Shown here piece after piece: positions 955 to 47,640 of a stretch of DNA of 51,239 nt; positions within the stretch are counted from its first letter, which is position 1; the number at the start of each line of letters is the position of its first letter. Below the pieces are notes generated by a model. That model did no database searches. It saw only the letters and a list, made by a program, of their open reading frames with translations, and was not told the origin of the DNA. The stretch comes from Candidatus Cloacimonadota bacterium (lineage in GTDB: Bacteria > Cloacimonadota > Cloacimonadia > Cloacimonadales > TCS61): assembly GCA_021734245.1 (NCBI GenBank), contig JAIPJH010000011.1, forward strand, positions 1 through 51,239, given 5' to 3'. Made by a program: the position numbers and the translations under genes.

Positions 955-1764
955 TCAACCTTTTAGGTTCTCAATTTTTGTAATGAATTTTTTTACTCTG
1001 TTTTCACTTACACTATTCTGCCAGTTTCCATCTATTTTGAAATGAGAACCAATTATAAATCCGTCAGCATAATTCCAATATTCAGAGATGTTTTGGATCG
1101 ATATTCCTGAACCGATCAAAATGGCTAGTTTTGTAGATCTTTCAGCTTCTTTCAAATCAGAAAGCTCGGTTTTTTCCGAAGTGGATTTGCCGGTGATGAT
1201 GATGCCATCACTCAAGAAGAATTCAGCGGCTTTGGTAAAATCGGAGATGCTTAGATCAGATGTGATAGCATGAGATGAATGCTTCTTCTGGACATCAGTG
1301 AAAATGGCAATGTGTTCAGCTCCGATTTTTTTGCGAAATCGCATCAATTCTCCGGCATCGGAGTTCATCAAGCCCTCATCAGCAATGTGGGAAAATACAA
1401 AACCTTCACAACGGACGAATTCGCATTCGGCAGCAAGTGCTGCCGCCAAAGCCGCCTGATTGGCTCCTGCCAGAATTTGCAAACCGCAGGGCAAATTCAC
1501 TTCGCATTTCACTTCTCGGGCAATAGCAGTCATTGCAGCTGTAATCTCCGGACCAACTTCCCGATTCAAATAGGGAACATCGTGCATGTTTTCCAGCATG
1601 ATCGCATCAACTCCACATTCCTGGTAGATTTTTGCTTCTTTGACAGCTAAATCAATAATTTCAGCAATTGTTTTGTCATTTTTTGGTGTTCCCGGCAAAG
1701 CCTGAACATGGATCATTCCAATAATTTTTTTAGTCTTGAAAAAATCTACTGTAAATTTGTTCAT
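955..1764 (-). CDS. BtpA/SgcQ family TIM-barrel protein
   Basis: The product is 269 residues, full length for the BtpA family (photosystem I biogenesis protein BtpA and SgcQ relatives, predicted phosphate-binding TIM barrels). The N-terminal family signature is visible as GMIHVQALPGTP (about residues 16-27). It is followed by DAIMLENMHDVPYL (about 51-64) and a C-terminal LIGSGIS phosphate-site-like segment. The start ATG at 1764 overlaps the TAA of the upstream symporter by one base (TAATG), which implies translational coupling. An in-frame TTG twelve bases earlier is less likely because AAAGGA abuts it directly. The upstream TPP riboswitch should control both genes. The family's reaction is not established, so a role in thiamine or precursor metabolism is inference from context. 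Confidence 0.85.
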   Translation of the reverse strand: MNKFTVDFFKTKKIIGMIHVQALPGTPKNDKTIAEIIDLAVKEAKIYQECGVDAIMLENMHDVPYLNREVGPEITAAMTAIAREVKCEVNLPCGLQILAGANQAALAAALAAECEFVRCEGFVFSHIADEGLMNSDAGELMRFRKKIGAEHIAIFTDVQKKHSSHAITSDLSISDFTKAAEFFLSDGIIITGKSTSEKTELSDLKEAERSTKLAILIGSGISIQNISEYWNYADGFIIGSHFKIDGNWQNSVSENRVKKFITKIENLKG

Positions 1765-2147
1765 TATATTTTCCAATCCTTTCTAACGCATTTACAAAAA
1801 CCGTGATAAATAGCACAGATTCCTCCAAAAATGGAGAAAAATCCCCAGAACAATGGAAGTGCAAAAATGTGCATTATGGAAATTTCACCGTTATTTGCCT
1901 TCACACTTTCCGAGATTATTGGAACGTAATAAATTCCAGCTGTAACAAGCATGCAGCCTGCTACGATCGCCGCATGACCAAAAATGATCATCCCATAGCG
2001 GTTTTTCACAAATGTTATCGTTATCAATCCTGTTGCTATGATCAATTTTACGAGAGCCCACATAATGATGCCCTGAGCAAAATGAATGACTGCAAAAACC
2101 AGCAATCCAATTCCCAATAATAATGTAATAATACTTCCAATTTTCAT
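1764..2147 (-). other. possible independent start of the C-terminal membrane protein
   Basis: Within the symporter reading frame an ATG at 2147 is preceded by AAAGGAG seven bases upstream. Reading from it gives a 127-residue protein with about four hydrophobic helices. It may be a separate small membrane protein that became fused when a repeat removed the symporter's stop codon. Both products could be made. Confidence 0.45.
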
Positions 2148-3632
2148 CTCTTTCTCCTTTTCGTCATCCTGAGGTAGCTCAAAGCTTCGGCTTGGCAGGC
2201 AAAATGACGATGTTTTGAGTAATTTCTTTAATAATCCATAACTTATCAATCCCAATGAAGTTGCAATTATTCCCATATATAATTCATCCACATTTTGCCA
2301 GAAACCAGTTAGTGTAATATTGCGCCAAACTGAAACCGTGATAACTCCCAGAATACTGGCAAAAATAAACTGATTATCTTTTATTTTTCCCGGAAAGATA
2401 TAACCGTAAAGAACAGGTAATAATAAACAACTCGCCGAGTAACTTCCCAACGTTTTCCAAACATCTTTTATGTTCCCTTCAAATACAATTCCCAATATAA
2501 CTGCCAGAATTCCCACGAAAATGATTCCCAAATGATAAAGTGAAACTTTTCCTTTCAATTTTCTTGGCATCAGATCATAGGAAACTGTGGTGCCGGCAAT
2601 GAAAAGATAAGAATCCAATGTAGAAAGAATCGTAGCGAGAATCCCAGCCAAAACAAATCCTCTGATTCCTGCAGGTAGAATTTGCAAAGCATAGATCAGA
2701 TAAGCTTTATCGGAAGCTGCTTCTGGAATTACAGCTCGTGCGTACATTGCACCGCTGGTCGTGCAGATATCGAATAAAAACCAGATCAAGGTAGAAATCA
2801 AGATTCCATTTCTGGCTGCTTTCTCATTTTTGGCAGCAAAAACTCGCTGGTAGAAATTCGGATCGACTAAAGTGGAAAGTGCGATAAATCCCCAAACCAA
2901 AGTAGTTGCAAGACCAACTCCGCCTGTAGGTGAAAAATGTGTGGCTGGTAGATTGGCTTTCAGAAATCCGATTCCACCGAATATTTTTACTGAAAAAACC
3001 AGAACTAAAAACACCCCCAGACACATCACGAAAAACTGTACGATATCAGAAAATACAACTGCCCGAAATCCACCATAAAGTGTATAGATAATAACGATCG
3101 TAGTTCCGATCAGCATACTTACAAATAGGGTTCCACCAAAAATTGCCTGAATCAGCAATCCCAAACTTATGACATAAGCGATAGGAAGCACATTGAAAAA
3201 ATTGAAAACAGCACTCAGTTTTTCCGATTTAGGACCGAACATTTTCCCTACCAGATTAGGCAGCGTTACAGCTTTATATTTGGAAACTTTCTTCACAATG
3301 AAAAGTGCAAAAATAATGTAGGCAATATACCAGAAAAAACCCTGTGTTACAAAGTTGAAGATTCCTTGTTCAAAGGCGATCTTAGTCACGCCGAAAATGC
3401 CACCATACCAGGTTGCAACCAAGGTTGCCACAAACATCGGCAGAGTTAACTGTCTTCCCATCAAAAGCAGATCCAGAAAATTATATTCTTCGCTGTTTTT
3501 CTTTTTAACTTTTCTCTTGAGAGTCTGTCCATAAATGATTGCTGCAAAAGTAATTAATAAAACCGCTGAGAAAACTATCCAGTCAGCTGATGTTATTATC
3601 GATTTGTAATCGACCGTACTTTCAAAATTCAT
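1764..3632 (-). CDS. sodium:solute symporter, fused to a C-terminal 4-TM segment
   Basis: The product is 622 residues. Residues 1 to about 475 are a sodium:solute symporter (SSS family) with many membrane segments and the conserved YGGFRAVVFSDIVQ motif. Family members are usually about 480-550 residues. Residues about 475-495 come from an intergenic-type palindromic repeat (2161-2210). The last 127 residues form about four membrane helices with their own start signal. A TPP riboswitch lies directly upstream, and AAAGGAG precedes the ATG by six bases. SSS transporters under THI-box control have been proposed as thiamine or precursor importers (ThiV-like, from memory of comparative genomics), so that is the best guess for the substrate. 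It forms an operon with the BtpA gene. Confidence 0.85.
   Translation of the reverse strand: MNFESTVDYKSIITSADWIVFSAVLLITFAAIIYGQTLKRKVKKKNSEEYNFLDLLLMGRQLTLPMFVATLVATWYGGIFGVTKIAFEQGIFNFVTQGFFWYIAYIIFALFIVKKVSKYKAVTLPNLVGKMFGPKSEKLSAVFNFFNVLPIAYVISLGLLIQAIFGGTLFVSMLIGTTIVIIYTLYGGFRAVVFSDIVQFFVMCLGVFLVLVFSVKIFGGIGFLKANLPATHFSPTGGVGLATTLVWGFIALSTLVDPNFYQRVFAAKNEKAARNGILISTLIWFLFDICTTSGAMYARAVIPEAASDKAYLIYALQILPAGIRGFVLAGILATILSTLDSYLFIAGTTVSYDLMPRKLKGKVSLYHLGIIFVGILAVILGIVFEGNIKDVWKTLGSYSASCLLLPVLYGYIFPGKIKDNQFIFASILGVITVSVWRNITLTGFWQNVDELYMGIIATSLGLISYGLLKKLLKTSSFCLPSRSFELPQDDEKEKEMKIGSIITLLLGIGLLVFAVIHFAQGIIMWALVKLIIATGLITITFVKNRYGMIIFGHAAIVAGCMLVTAGIYYVPIISESVKANNGEISIMHIFALPLFWGFFSIFGGICAIYHGFCKCVRKDWKI
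2161..2210. repeat. palindromic intergenic repeat inside the symporter frame
   Basis: The 50-nt unit has perfect 7-nt inverted ends (TCGTCAT at 2161-2167 and ATGACGA at 2204-2210) and an inner AAGCTTCGGCTT hairpin. CGTCATCCTGA words occur in the intergenic repeats at 47277 and elsewhere. On the minus strand it is read through in frame as low-information protein. Confidence 0.65.
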
Positions 3633-3639
3633 TTCACTC

Positions 3640-3735
3640 CTTTTTCGGAATTACCCGAACAAGTTCTAAGGGTCGCTTCCACCTCTCAGCACTTTCCCGC
3701 CTTTTTGCAGGAAGGCTCCCCTGTTTCTATTCGGA
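3640..3735 (-). promoter_or_regulatory. TPP (THI-box) riboswitch upstream of the SSS transporter
   Basis: Read on the minus strand, the conserved TPP aptamer elements appear in order: ACAGGGGAGC, GCTGAGA, ACCCTTAGAAC, TTGTTCGGGTAAT, then CCGAAAAAGGAG. The 3' end runs into the AAAGGAG ribosome binding site of the symporter, which starts at 3632. The spacing suggests translational control by sequestering that site. In known systems ligand binding lowers expression when thiamine pyrophosphate is plentiful. Confidence 0.9.
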
Positions 3736-3790
3736 AAGATTTTGAAATTAGAATAAAAGTCAAATCATTTTATCAAAACATAAGTTTAGC

Positions 3791-3846: not shown

Positions 3847-3982
3847 AAGCAGGAAAAACCTTGCGTCGCAATGGTTGAATAATTGAATGAATTTCTAAAT
3901 ATCCTTGAAACTGCTAATCAGGAAGAAAATCTGGAGAAAGCCTGCCAAAGGTAGAGAAGCCTTTTCAAGTTAAGAAAAAAAA

Positions 3983-4144
3983 CACGCATCCCCCGAAAAA
4001 TTTGGAAAGTATAAACCTAATTTATTGTAATAAATGAAATTGAATTGATTTCACAGGTTAAAAATTCATGGGCTTGAAAAAAATGAAATTATTGTGTTTT
4101 TTTTGTTGCTTACTGAAAAATAAATATTTTTCGGGGGATGCGTG
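3983..4144. mobile_element. MITE-like element, 19-bp terminal inverted repeats
   Basis: The 162-bp element has perfect 19-nt inverted ends, 3983-4001 and 4126-4144, beginning CACGCATCCCCCG. The interior is AT-rich and has no reading frame of note. An AAGAAAAAAA word directly abuts both ends (3972-3982 and 4145-4154), as expected of a 9-10 bp target-site duplication. It sits exactly between two divergent TPP riboswitches. The family of the mobilising transposase is unknown. Confidence 0.7.
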
Positions 4145-4214
4145 AAGAAAAAAACCATTTGACATCGAAATCATCCCAGTGAAAGTCGACTTTAGATCTT
4201 TAAGAAATTAGTGT

Positions 4215-4291
4215 GTAAATCTGATTTAGGGGTGCCGGAAGGCTGAGATAATACCCTTGAACCTGATCTGGATAATGCCAGCGGAGGAAAT
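4215..4291 (+). promoter_or_regulatory. TPP (THI-box) riboswitch, plus strand
   Basis: A textbook TPP aptamer: GGGGTGCC, GGCTGAGA, ATACCCTTGAACCTGATC, then TGGATAATGCCAGCGGAGG. The 3' end supplies a GGAGG ribosome binding site for a short ORF, and a terminator-like hairpin follows within 30 bases. A TTGACA word at 4159 is a possible -35 box. The likely target is the TonB-dependent receptor at 4690, which is now separated from it by a repeat. Confidence 0.95.
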
Positions 4292-4366
4292 ATGAAGAAA
4301 TTGATAAAGTATCGAAATAAACCACATTCCCGTTATCTGCTGGGATGTGGTTTTTTTTGTTTTTAA
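4292..4366 (+). CDS. 24-residue leader ORF after the riboswitch
   Basis: The ATG at 4292 is five bases after GGAGG in the riboswitch 3' end. The frame encodes a Lys/Arg-rich start (MKKLIKYRNK) and ends inside the terminator T-run with GCGFFCF and TAA. It could be a leader peptide, the remnant 5' end of a gene displaced by the following repeat, or chance. No homologue is recognised. Confidence 0.3.
   Translation: MKKLIKYRNKPHSRYLLGCGFFCF
4320..4358 (+). terminator. terminator hairpin, riboswitch expression platform
   Basis: ACCACATTCCC pairs with GGGATGTGGT (one bulge) and is followed by eight T residues. Its position 30 bases after the TPP aptamer suggests transcriptional attenuation in addition to control of the ribosome binding site. 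Confidence 0.8.
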
Positions 4367-4562: not shown

Positions 4563-4689
4563 CGTTTCGTAAGAAATTTTGTAAGATTCCTCGCAAAGAC
4601 AGTACACTTTCTCCTCGATAGGAGAAGGTGGTCTGAACCACTCGTGAGTGGTCAGATCGGATAAGGTTGAAAAAAAAGGAGCGAAAAAG

Positions 4690-7146
4690 ATGAAGAAATT
4701 ATTTTTAATTATATTTATAATATTTTTAGCTGATCTGCTATTGGCAGATACTCTGATCGGTCAAATTCGATCAGCAGAAGAAGATAAGGCTTTGGAAGGT
4801 GTTTCTGTTTATCTTGAAGGAATGAATAAAGGCACGATAAGCGATGAAAAAGGAAATTTTGTAATTAAGGATCTGGAACCAGGACATTACTTTATAAATT
4901 TCACTCGCATGGGTTATAAATCTTTTCAGAAAGAAATTGATTTCCCCCAGGTTTACAGTTTGCAGATCAAGTTGAAAAGAAAACCGACTATGATCGAAGG
5001 AATGCGCGTTTCATCGACAGTTGCGGTGGAAAGAGAAACACCAGTTACATTTACGAATATGAAAAAAAAGGAAATTGAGGAAGCTAATTTTGGTCAGGAT
5101 ATTCCCATGCTGATGAATGAACTACCCAACGTATTTTCTTACGCAGATGCCGGCAGCCCGATGGGATATTCTTATCTCAAAATTCGCGGTTTCGATCAGA
5201 AGCGAATTGGGGTGATGATCAATGGAATTCCCCTCAATGATCCGGAAGATCATCAGGTTTACTGGGTTGATATGCCCGATTTTGCTGAAAGCATTTCCGA
5301 TATTCAATTCCAGCGCGGAGTAGGAAGTTCCATTTACGGAGTTTCTACTTTTGGTGGTTCATTGAATATGCAGACAAATCATGCAACTAAGAAAGAAGGT
5401 TCCGAACTTTTTGCTAATTTTGGAAGTTATAATACTGTAAAATACGGCTTCAAAACAACTCATGATATAATGAACTATTTCAAACTCAATCTACGGCTTT
5501 CCCGCATCACTTCCGATGGTTATCGAGATAACAGCAAAACAGAGCAGCATTCCTATTTTGCAGGTCTCAGCAAGATCGGAGAACGCAGCATCACGGAACT
5601 TAATTTCTACGGTGGGAACGAACTCACTCATGCTGCCTGGTACGCCTCCTGGGAAGGTGATCTGCAGGAAAATCACCAGCACAATCCCATCACTTATGAT
5701 AATGAAATCGATGATTTCAGCCAGCCACATTATGAATTGCATCACAAATATATGATCAACGAAAACCTGAATTCAGAAAATTCTCTTTTCTACATAAAAG
5801 GGAAAGGTTATTATGAACAGTACAAAGAAGATCGAGATCTCTGGGAATTTGGTCTGGCAGCCGATCCTGAAACGATCGAAACTGATCTGATCCGCCAGAA
5901 ATGGGTAGAAAAAAATCAGTATGGCTGGGTGGGAAATCTGCATTGGAACCATCGGTTTGGAAATCTTACAATTGGCAGTTATATCAGCCTTTTCGACAGC
6001 GAACATTGGGGAGAAATTGAAGAAGTTATTGGAGCTGATACTTTAAGTGTCAGTTATGAGAAAAATCAGGAATATCACAATTACACAGGAGATAAAAAAT
6101 ATTATACATTTTACATCAATGAAATCTTCAAACCAATTGAAAAAATAAGTATCATGGCAAACCTTCATTATCAGATGATCGACTATAAATTCCGGCAGCA
6201 TGAATCCGGTAATTTTGCCGGTGAAAATCTTCATTCCTACGAAGTTGATTACAACTTTTTCAATCCCAGATTTGGAGTTAATTACAACTTGAATGAATCG
6301 TTCAACATTTATGGAAATCTTTCTTTTGCGCAACGTGAGCCAACCGATGGCGAACTTTTCGATCTGTGGGATGGACCGGACGATTTAGGCGTTGCCCCGC
6401 TTTTTGCCAATGCAGATACGATTTATGTGAATGGCCAGATCGATCACATCAAGTGGAGCGATCCTTATGTGAAAGAAGAAAAGCTGATGGATATTGAATT
6501 GGGATTTGGTTACGATGCCGGAAGTTGGAAAATCAAAGCGAATCTCTTCCAAATGAATTTCCAGGATGAAATTATCGGCTATGGAACTATGGATGATGAT
6601 GGTGATCCAATCCGTGGAAATGCCGATGAAACAGTGCATCGCGGAGTGGAGCTTGAAGTGAAAGCAGAAATATTTCCAGATCTGAGTTTGAGTGGAAGTT
6701 TCAGTTACAACGATAATTATTTCGAGAAATTTATTATGAAAGACTGGGATGCCAACTGGAATGTTATCGATGTAGATTATTCCGGTAATAAAATAGGTGG
6801 TTTCCCCGATATTCTAGCAAGTTCCAAACTTTCTTATGAATGGAAATCTCTATTGACTTCCTTGCAAATTCAACACGTTGGAAAACAATATCTGGATAAC
6901 ACGGAAAATGAAGATCGCATTGTAGAAGCATATCAACTTTTGAATTTTGGTTTTAGTTATAAATTTGATGAATTACTAAAGAAAACAGACGTTGCCGTGA
7001 ATTTGAAAATTAATAATCTTCTGGATAAAGAATACGAAACATCTGGCTATTATGATCCGTGGGGCGGACCTGACTGGAGTGGTGCGAATTATTATTTTCC
7101 CGGAGCTGGAAGAAATATAATTGCAGGAATCAGAGTAGGATTTTAG
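4690..7146 (+). CDS. TonB-dependent outer-membrane receptor, probably for thiamine
   Basis: The product is 818 residues. It has a signal peptide (MKKLFLIIF..., cleaved near LLLADT), then a carboxypeptidase-regulatory-like beta-sandwich (about residues 20-100; GQIRSAEE, GVSVYLEG, GNFVIKDLEPG). A plug domain follows (about 115-230; YLKIRGFDQKRIGVMINGIPLND, GSSIYGVSTFGGSLN), then a C-terminal barrel ending in Phe. The start at 4690 follows AAAAAAGGAG and the signal peptide; an earlier in-frame start at 4648 would add a charged tail. Such receptors pull scarce ligands across the outer membrane using TonB energy. The upstream TPP riboswitch suggests thiamine, as proposed for riboswitch-linked receptors in Bacteroidetes. 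The substrate remains inferred. Confidence 0.9.
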   Translation: MKKLFLIIFIIFLADLLLADTLIGQIRSAEEDKALEGVSVYLEGMNKGTISDEKGNFVIKDLEPGHYFINFTRMGYKSFQKEIDFPQVYSLQIKLKRKPTMIEGMRVSSTVAVERETPVTFTNMKKKEIEEANFGQDIPMLMNELPNVFSYADAGSPMGYSYLKIRGFDQKRIGVMINGIPLNDPEDHQVYWVDMPDFAESISDIQFQRGVGSSIYGVSTFGGSLNMQTNHATKKEGSELFANFGSYNTVKYGFKTTHDIMNYFKLNLRLSRITSDGYRDNSKTEQHSYFAGLSKIGERSITELNFYGGNELTHAAWYASWEGDLQENHQHNPITYDNEIDDFSQPHYELHHKYMINENLNSENSLFYIKGKGYYEQYKEDRDLWEFGLAADPETIETDLIRQKWVEKNQYGWVGNLHWNHRFGNLTIGSYISLFDSEHWGEIEEVIGADTLSVSYEKNQEYHNYTGDKKYYTFYINEIFKPIEKISIMANLHYQMIDYKFRQHESGNFAGENLHSYEVDYNFFNPRFGVNYNLNESFNIYGNLSFAQREPTDGELFDLWDGPDDLGVAPLFANADTIYVNGQIDHIKWSDPYVKEEKLMDIELGFGYDAGSWKIKANLFQMNFQDEIIGYGTMDDDGDPIRGNADETVHRGVELEVKAEIFPDLSLSGSFSYNDNYFEKFIMKDWDANWNVIDVDYSGNKIGGFPDILASSKLSYEWKSLLTSLQIQHVGKQYLDNTENEDRIVEAYQLLNFGFSYKFDELLKKTDVAVNLKINNLLDKEYETSGYYDPWGGPDWSGANYYFPGAGRNIIAGIRVGF

Positions 7147-47269: not shown

Positions 47270-47640
47270 TTATCGGTCATCCTGAGGAATTCTTTCTTAG
47301 AAAGTTGACGAAGGATAGACGAGTTCATATTTCGTCAAAAAGCAAAGAGTACCTCAATATGACGACATTTTTTTTGTAAGCCCACGAATTCATTCGTGGG
47401 TAACTTCGGCACAGGTTGGAAGAATCTCTTTGCATTCCGAGAAGTAAAGCACCAAGAGTTTTCACGAGATCCTTCCAAGGTAATGCTAACAGAAACGTCA
47501 GGATGACGGCTTTTTTTGGGTGCAAAGCGTTTTTTAGATTTTAAGCGACAAATTCGCTTGCAATTGCAATTCGTCATTGATCTGGTCATATCCTTCGATA
47601 CGTCGTTACACTCCTACTCAGGATGACATATATTTTCCCC
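47270..47640. repeat. repeat cluster incl. GGATCTC-family copy d
   Basis: 47277-47375 holds a GTCATCCTGAGG start and an inverted CCTCAATATGACGAC end. 47383-47515 is a reversed GGATCTC-family unit (CACGAGATCCTTCC, GAAGAATCTC, CGTCAGGATGACGG) with an inner CCCACGAATTCATTCGTGGG hairpin. 47590-47633 has CGATACGTCG and TCAGGATGAC. No gene is supported in 47260-47670. Confidence 0.75.

Follow-up and report, generated by a model that had tools for sequence, protein, structure and literature searches.

The window analysed here, a stretch of 51,239 nucleotides from a Candidatus Cloacimonadota bacterium, contains two divergent TPP riboswitches that are separated by a 162-bp unit with inverted ends. This arrangement raises the question of what the unit is and how it came to lie there, and whether its presence has altered the promoters of the genes on either side. 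An earlier note on this DNA had read it as a MITE-like element inserted in the space that should hold both riboswitch promoters.

A 162-bp element between two divergent TPP riboswitches

The + strand TPP riboswitch (4218–4306), which belongs to a TonB-dependent-receptor-like gene (4648–7146), scores 63.5 bits and exceeds the Rfam gathering threshold of 54.3. The divergent one (3621–3732, − strand), upstream of a sodium:solute-symporter-like gene (1764–3632), is weaker: it scores 36.3 bits, below gathering (E 3.8e-5 in a local search), and has a long insert in one stem, but a counterpart is present in several relatives. The setting described in the earlier note, with an element between two divergent TPP riboswitches, was thus recovered.

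The element itself occupies positions 3983–4144. Its terminal inverted repeats, CACGCATCCCCCGAAAAAT at 3983–4001 (+ strand) and the perfect complement at 4126–4144 (− strand), are 19 nt long and 100% complementary, as first described, with 124 nt between the arms. The left repeat is the same at 19 of 19 nt as the end of a transposase-bearing element in a related genome (G010:C141:2633). Comparison of the flanks revealed an exact 10-nt word, AAGAAAAAAA, at 3972–3981 and at 4145–4154. These words form a target-site duplication, with a left copy (AAGAAAAAAAA, 3972–3982) and a right copy (AAGAAAAAAAC, 4145–4155) that differ by 1 mismatch in 11, the first 10 being exact, and the candidate duplication proposed earlier is therefore confirmed (10/10, or 10/11, identical). 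The right copy is followed by a 3-nt spacer (4156–4158, + strand) and then by TTGACA (4159–4164, + strand), the element's target motif and the putative −35 box of the TPP-riboswitch/TonB-receptor leader. No ORF of at least 90 aa is contained in 3983–4144, and the element folds far more strongly than its shuffled versions (z of −5.3 and −4.1 for the two strands; 0 of 200 shuffles as good).

We examined the orthologous leaders of relatives, including a search for the empty site that the earlier note had proposed as a check. In a congener, the flanks of the window element are contiguous and enclose a single target copy (GAAGCCTTTTCAAGGTTAAGCAAAAACCATTTGA; L133, and L110 from QMNP01000026.1), at a locus where the surrounding unit is repeated. 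In three further leaders (L111, L119 and G002/L128, the last from a congener), AAAAAACCATTTGACA is present and the element is absent. A leader from another species (L113) has, at the corresponding position ahead of this riboswitch, an element whose ends, CATCCATCCC...GGGGGATATCTG, are related; its duplication is degraded. Since congeners of the host are without the element, this looks like an independent insertion. The intergenic space of L110, L119 and L128 also contains tandem direct repeats of about 230–250 bp, which are rich in palindromes (GGACTTCTCGTCCCGAGGAGTCC).

These comparisons bear on whether the inverted repeat could be a conserved regulatory structure of the riboswitch leader, such as an attenuator, a terminator or a protein-binding palindrome, and not a mobile element. 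The strong fold would suit such a structure, as would internal hairpins that, judged by eye, seem to persist from genus to genus through compensating changes. However, most orthologous leaders are without the repeat, one site is empty, and copies with target duplications stand before unrelated genes; neither of the two observations that the earlier note had named as pointing to regulation, an absence of other copies and conservation of the repeat in orthologous leaders, was made. A regulatory RNA structure is ruled out by the empty site and by the unrelated contexts of the copies, and we give a conserved leader structure of any kind almost no credence.

The element family and its transposase-bearing relatives

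The ends of the element recur across the host genome, as the earlier note had suggested should be checked: the end motif, with at most 2 mismatches, gave 56 matches in 3.1 Mb compared with 2 for a reversed control, and the element used as a DNA query gave 75 matches. In this Cloacimonadota genome the family numbers about 30 copies. Several contigs terminate within one of them, as expected for repeats. Most aligned copies measure 319–341 bp (the family being ~320–340 bp), and one other copy besides that of the window is short, at 163 bp.

The window copy aligns with full-length copies from end to end, with the middle missing, and its closest relative is C9:24916–25237. Its outer parts are joined at TGAAATT (4035–4041, + strand), a word that borders the missing ~160 bp on both sides in full-length copies; the window copy is thus an internal-deletion derivative, and the deletion probably arose between these short direct repeats. 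A remnant of the right internal hairpin of the full-length element (GATTTCACAGGTTAAAAATTCATGGGC) is retained at 4042–4074 (+ strand).

Full-length copies contain two perfect internal palindromes, CCCACGAAT..ATTCGTGGG and CCCATGAAT..ATTCATGGG. An apex segment of ~36 nt is found in the left palindrome of some copies and, inverted, in the right palindrome of others (L012 536–874 versus L020 543–881), so that either both palindromes were once filled or the segment moved between hairpins. In other genera (L071, L072, L080 and L069), the internal hairpins are retained with paired changes, identified by eye (CCCACGAAT/ATTCGTGGG, CCCATGAAT/ATTCATGGG and CCCACAAAT/ATTTGTGGG), which suggests selection on the palindromes or their self-correction. 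One palindrome of the family, CCCACGAATTCATTCGTGGG, also stands alone in the window at 47381–47400, without element ends. This solitary copy and related palindromes elsewhere in the genome mean that it may be a dispersed repeat in its own right, which the MITE carries. At G000:C7 (L022 656–1244 and 2673–3261), two 589-bp copies with an extra palindrome array flank a secreted-protein-like gene; the sequence outside them is shared on one flank, as a segmental duplication would produce, and one of them is without a target duplication. Neither these copies nor a long-spaced end pair (C52:25–2474) enclose a transposase, and both were rejected as autonomous elements.

A transposase was looked for in the host and in related genomes. 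No homolog was found in the host assembly; the sole IS4-type (DDE_Tnp_1) gene of the host genome (C44) has no matching ends and is nearer to IS1182 models, and was discarded as a candidate. Scanning related genomes for the end pattern revealed, in G019, a pair of ends 1479 bp apart that encloses a 449-aa ORF, with the flanking arrangement CTGTAACTTA / element / CTGTAACTTA-TCC-TTGACA. The 449-aa protein scores 56.8 against Pfam DDE_Tnp_1 (cut-off 23), and its nearest NCBIfam match is IS4, although it stays below every NCBIfam IS4 cut-off (IS4_2 score 73, cut-off 152). As it passes the Pfam DDE_Tnp_1 cut-off yet falls under that of NCBIfam IS4_2, the transposase probably represents an undescribed IS4 subgroup. 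Among 11 transposases, D118, D206 and E341 are invariant, with 87 and 134 residues between them, as are Y334-R337-E341-K348 (YRLRWKIEEVHRHVK at 334). These residues match the signature reported for the IS4 family, D(60–110)D(100–150)E and Y(2)R(3)E(6)K, which goes together with duplications of ~10 bp (PMC2266710). In agreement with that family, ends are mostly CACGCAT, with a 5'-CA start, and duplications range from 9 to 17 bp with a mode of 11.

Homologs of the transposase are present in 45 of the 107 genomes of the order. Complete transposase elements were recovered from G019, G049 and G050 (each 1479 bp) and from G028, G092 and G094, all with ends that differ from those of the window element at one or more positions. 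The end of the G010 transposase element is the same as the window's over 19 nt, and this element runs off its contig. Moreover, the congener G002 has decayed transposase fragments, one of them on contig C255, which also bears the end motif. The search for a transposase gene with the same ends, proposed in the earlier note, was therefore successful in related genomes (G010 with its identical 19-nt end, G019 and G049) and unsuccessful in the host assembly. Further afield, plasmids yielded only 23–24% matches, in Thermus plasmids, and viral sequences yielded none; the long end pattern was absent from genome contigs outside the element's own group. Overall, the recurring ends, the empty site in a congener and a transposase with such ends in relatives support the MITE reading.

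A one-sided target rule and its interpretation

The position of TTGACA next to the window element was compared with 129 distinct edges with outward flanks from ~20 related genomes, which had been chosen by the inverted-repeat pattern alone. At 58 of these edges, TTGAC faces away from the element and starts 11–18 nt out, when about 1 edge is expected from a background of ~0.1 occurrence per position at offsets farther out. Since each element has two edges, 58 of 129 covers most elements. Reversed TTGAC was found within 70 nt of none of the 129 edges. TTGAC alone was searched for; the base that follows it, the sixth, is A in 93%.

Where both ends of an element were known, matching of the flanks, blind to TTGAC, gave the length of the duplication, which ranges from 9 to 17 bp and is usually 11. 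In 27 of 29 elements, 5 transposase-bearing ones among them, exactly 3 nt separate the duplication from TTGAC, and in one exception (C8) this gap becomes 3 via the other side. Among the 37 paired elements, 4 lack TTGAC (these include a TTGTC variant, one element blocked by a neighbouring copy, and the G050 transposase copy) and 4 have TTGAC but no recognisable duplication. The rule is obeyed by 5 of the 6 transposase-bearing elements, including those of G092 and G094, which belong to another family of the order and whose transposases are ~30% identical to the query. The far target arm contains no motif, and a symmetric target motif is absent; the target is therefore one-sided.

Could this adjacency result from selection or sampling alone, with all other insertions lost? 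Insertions into coding sequences are indeed expected to be purged, but such losses cannot set a gap of exactly 3 nt in 27 of the 29 elements, which come from several genera, and the edges were picked by their inverted repeat alone. We therefore regard this explanation as barely credible.

Target words are in some cases shared between copies. The ends on C70 and C94 have CAAATATTAATC in common and those on C88 and C21 have GTTAACTTTTC, where we infer the joins across contig ends. Such sharing suggests repeated insertion at one TTGACA, that is, no target immunity.

We also asked whether the TTGACA targets are promoters. An ATG-initiated ORF of at least 100 aa starts 20–130 nt downstream of 31 of 45 TTGAC sides, compared with 16 of 61 other sides and 19% of random positions. 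A set of 75 TTGACA sites that lie upstream of genes but away from elements has the same T at +27 as the element-adjacent sites (63% versus 62%), and the TTGACA of the window site is invariant in 8 orthologous leaders. The host genes downstream of copies include those for ribosomal protein L21, MnmG, LemA, a RarA-like AAA ATPase and an acyl-CoA dehydrogenase. In the window, 11 of 18 TTGACA words are non-coding; the comparison of coding with non-coding targets, 5/52 versus 4/18, favours neither word reading nor promoter docking (see below). A TATAAT-like −10 hexamer was sought 16–18 nt below TTGACA, both at a set spacing and through a motif search, and nothing convincing emerged. It should be noted that, for this reason, the promoter reading draws on indirect signs, and the target TTGACA is best called a probable −35 box.

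This rule also bears on the question of promoter damage. The earlier note had proposed that the insertion may have changed expression from the riboswitch promoters; instead, 14 nt downstream of the element stands an intact TTGACA, conserved among the orthologous leaders, and nearly all copies of the family are placed in this way. As the element obeys the rule, inserting upstream of the −35-like box, the riboswitch promoter was probably spared. The element begins at about −51 of the TonB-receptor leader and extends upward, and TTTGACT (− strand, 3758–3764), which probably serves the divergent transporter as −35 word, is ~220 bp away from it, so that neither putative core promoter is broken. Any effect of the insertion should thus be confined to sequences upstream of about −50, and the insertion would be near-neutral for the downstream gene.

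Between TTGACA and the TPP riboswitch, L107–L112 and L119 share a conserved, boxA-like WGWTCTTTARRAA, which reads AGATCTTTAAGAA in the window (4194–4206). A boxA antitermination site before a riboswitch-controlled receptor gene would be unusual.

In all likelihood, then, 3983–4144 is a MITE, an internal-deletion derivative that was mobilised in trans by an IS4-type transposase and targeted to a point 3 nt upstream of a putative −35 box. At the level of sequence, the copies, their ends, the duplication, the empty site, the matching transposase elements and the asymmetric 3-nt target rule are established; we infer cut-and-paste chemistry and mobilisation by the transposase lineage of related Cloacimonadota. 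In the proposed mechanism, an IS4-type DDE transposase, encoded in related Cloacimonadota and supplied in trans, would pair the MITE ends. Joining of one transposon end would always take place 3 nt from TTGACA, on its upstream side, and that of the second end 9–17 bp (usually 11), about one helical turn, further upstream. Repair would then give the target duplication and leave the −35 box and the adjacent upstream A/T tract intact.

How the target is recognised can be explained in two ways. The transposase may read TTGACA as a plain DNA word, with one subunit on one target arm, the link with promoters being a by-product of where TTGACA occurs and of selection against coding insertions. This is the explanation towards which we lean: strong conservation of target arms has been documented for elements of the IS4 family (PMC2266710), the A that completes the hexamer is conserved though the search word did not include it, and TTGACA is mostly non-coding in the window, so that insertions could reach promoters with no additional factor. 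On the other hand, a symmetric target would be expected of a two-fold symmetric synaptic complex, and the far arm is without signal; moreover, the duplication varies over 9–17 bp and the distance is constant on the TTGACA side alone, which looks as though something else kept that side in place. This could be so if the transposase docked on a promoter-bound sigma factor or on the RNA polymerase alpha C-terminal domain, with joining at about −40. Docking would fit the asymmetry, with a distance fixed on the promoter side and variable on the far side, as well as the constant position of the element upstream of TTGACA and the promoter-like downstream bias of sites that lead into genes. Yet these positions are equally what reading of the plain DNA word would give, and below the TTGACA sites no −10 box could be recognised; we consider docking a minority hypothesis, with perhaps one chance in a few. 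The simplest account is that the transposase reads TTGACA, while the one-sidedness and the elastic duplication leave room for docking.

Relation to known elements and biological meaning

The transposase-bearing elements resemble the IS4 family (PMC2266710) in their single-ORF DDE transposase with Y(2)R(3)E(6)K, in the size of elements (1.4–1.8 kb), in their 5'-CA ends and in duplications of about one helical turn, and some IS4 members likewise have conserved target arms. None of the listed IS4 subgroup consensuses fits the ends found here, CACGCATMCCCCGAAA, well. The elements also differ in having a one-sided target, TTGACA plus exactly 3 nt, with a duplication of 9–17 bp. Promoters are unmentioned in the text of the IS4 paper (De Palmenaer et al. 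2008, PMC2266710).

As MITEs, the short copies are comparable to MITEAba12 and to BrickBuilt of Porphyromonas gingivalis, which (PMC6382973, PMC4596501) are likewise short, non-coding, multi-copy and intergenic, with inverted ends and target duplications. BrickBuilt has irregular duplications, and its own ends act as promoters (PMC4596501). For the present copies, by contrast, the intergenic position is accounted for by a distance from a promoter-like motif that is exact to the base, and there is a transposase lineage that follows the same target rule. MITEs and IS4 elements were already known; what appears to be new is a one-sided, base-exact −35-box rule across a whole element lineage. We found no description of −35-box-targeting insertion sequences in open-access papers.

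The yeast retrotransposons Ty1 and Ty3 insert at a set position relative to promoters and spare genes, their integrase being tethered to Pol III factors. The elements described here share with them a promoter-set insertion that spares genes, and differ in that Ty1 and Ty3 are retrotransposons with a tethered integrase. If the IS4-like lineage of Cloacimonadales docked on promoter-bound machinery, which we think possible but rather improbable, it would be a bacterial counterpart of promoter-tethered retrotransposons.

Insertion beside genes without breaking them would mean that host genes keep working while elements gather at their regulatory face. Such targeting would explain how a mobile element persists at ~30 copies in a 3-Mb genome. 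Moreover, element ends would mark promoters genome-wide in a phylum where little has been described of them, and the system might serve to place DNA immediately upstream of promoters.
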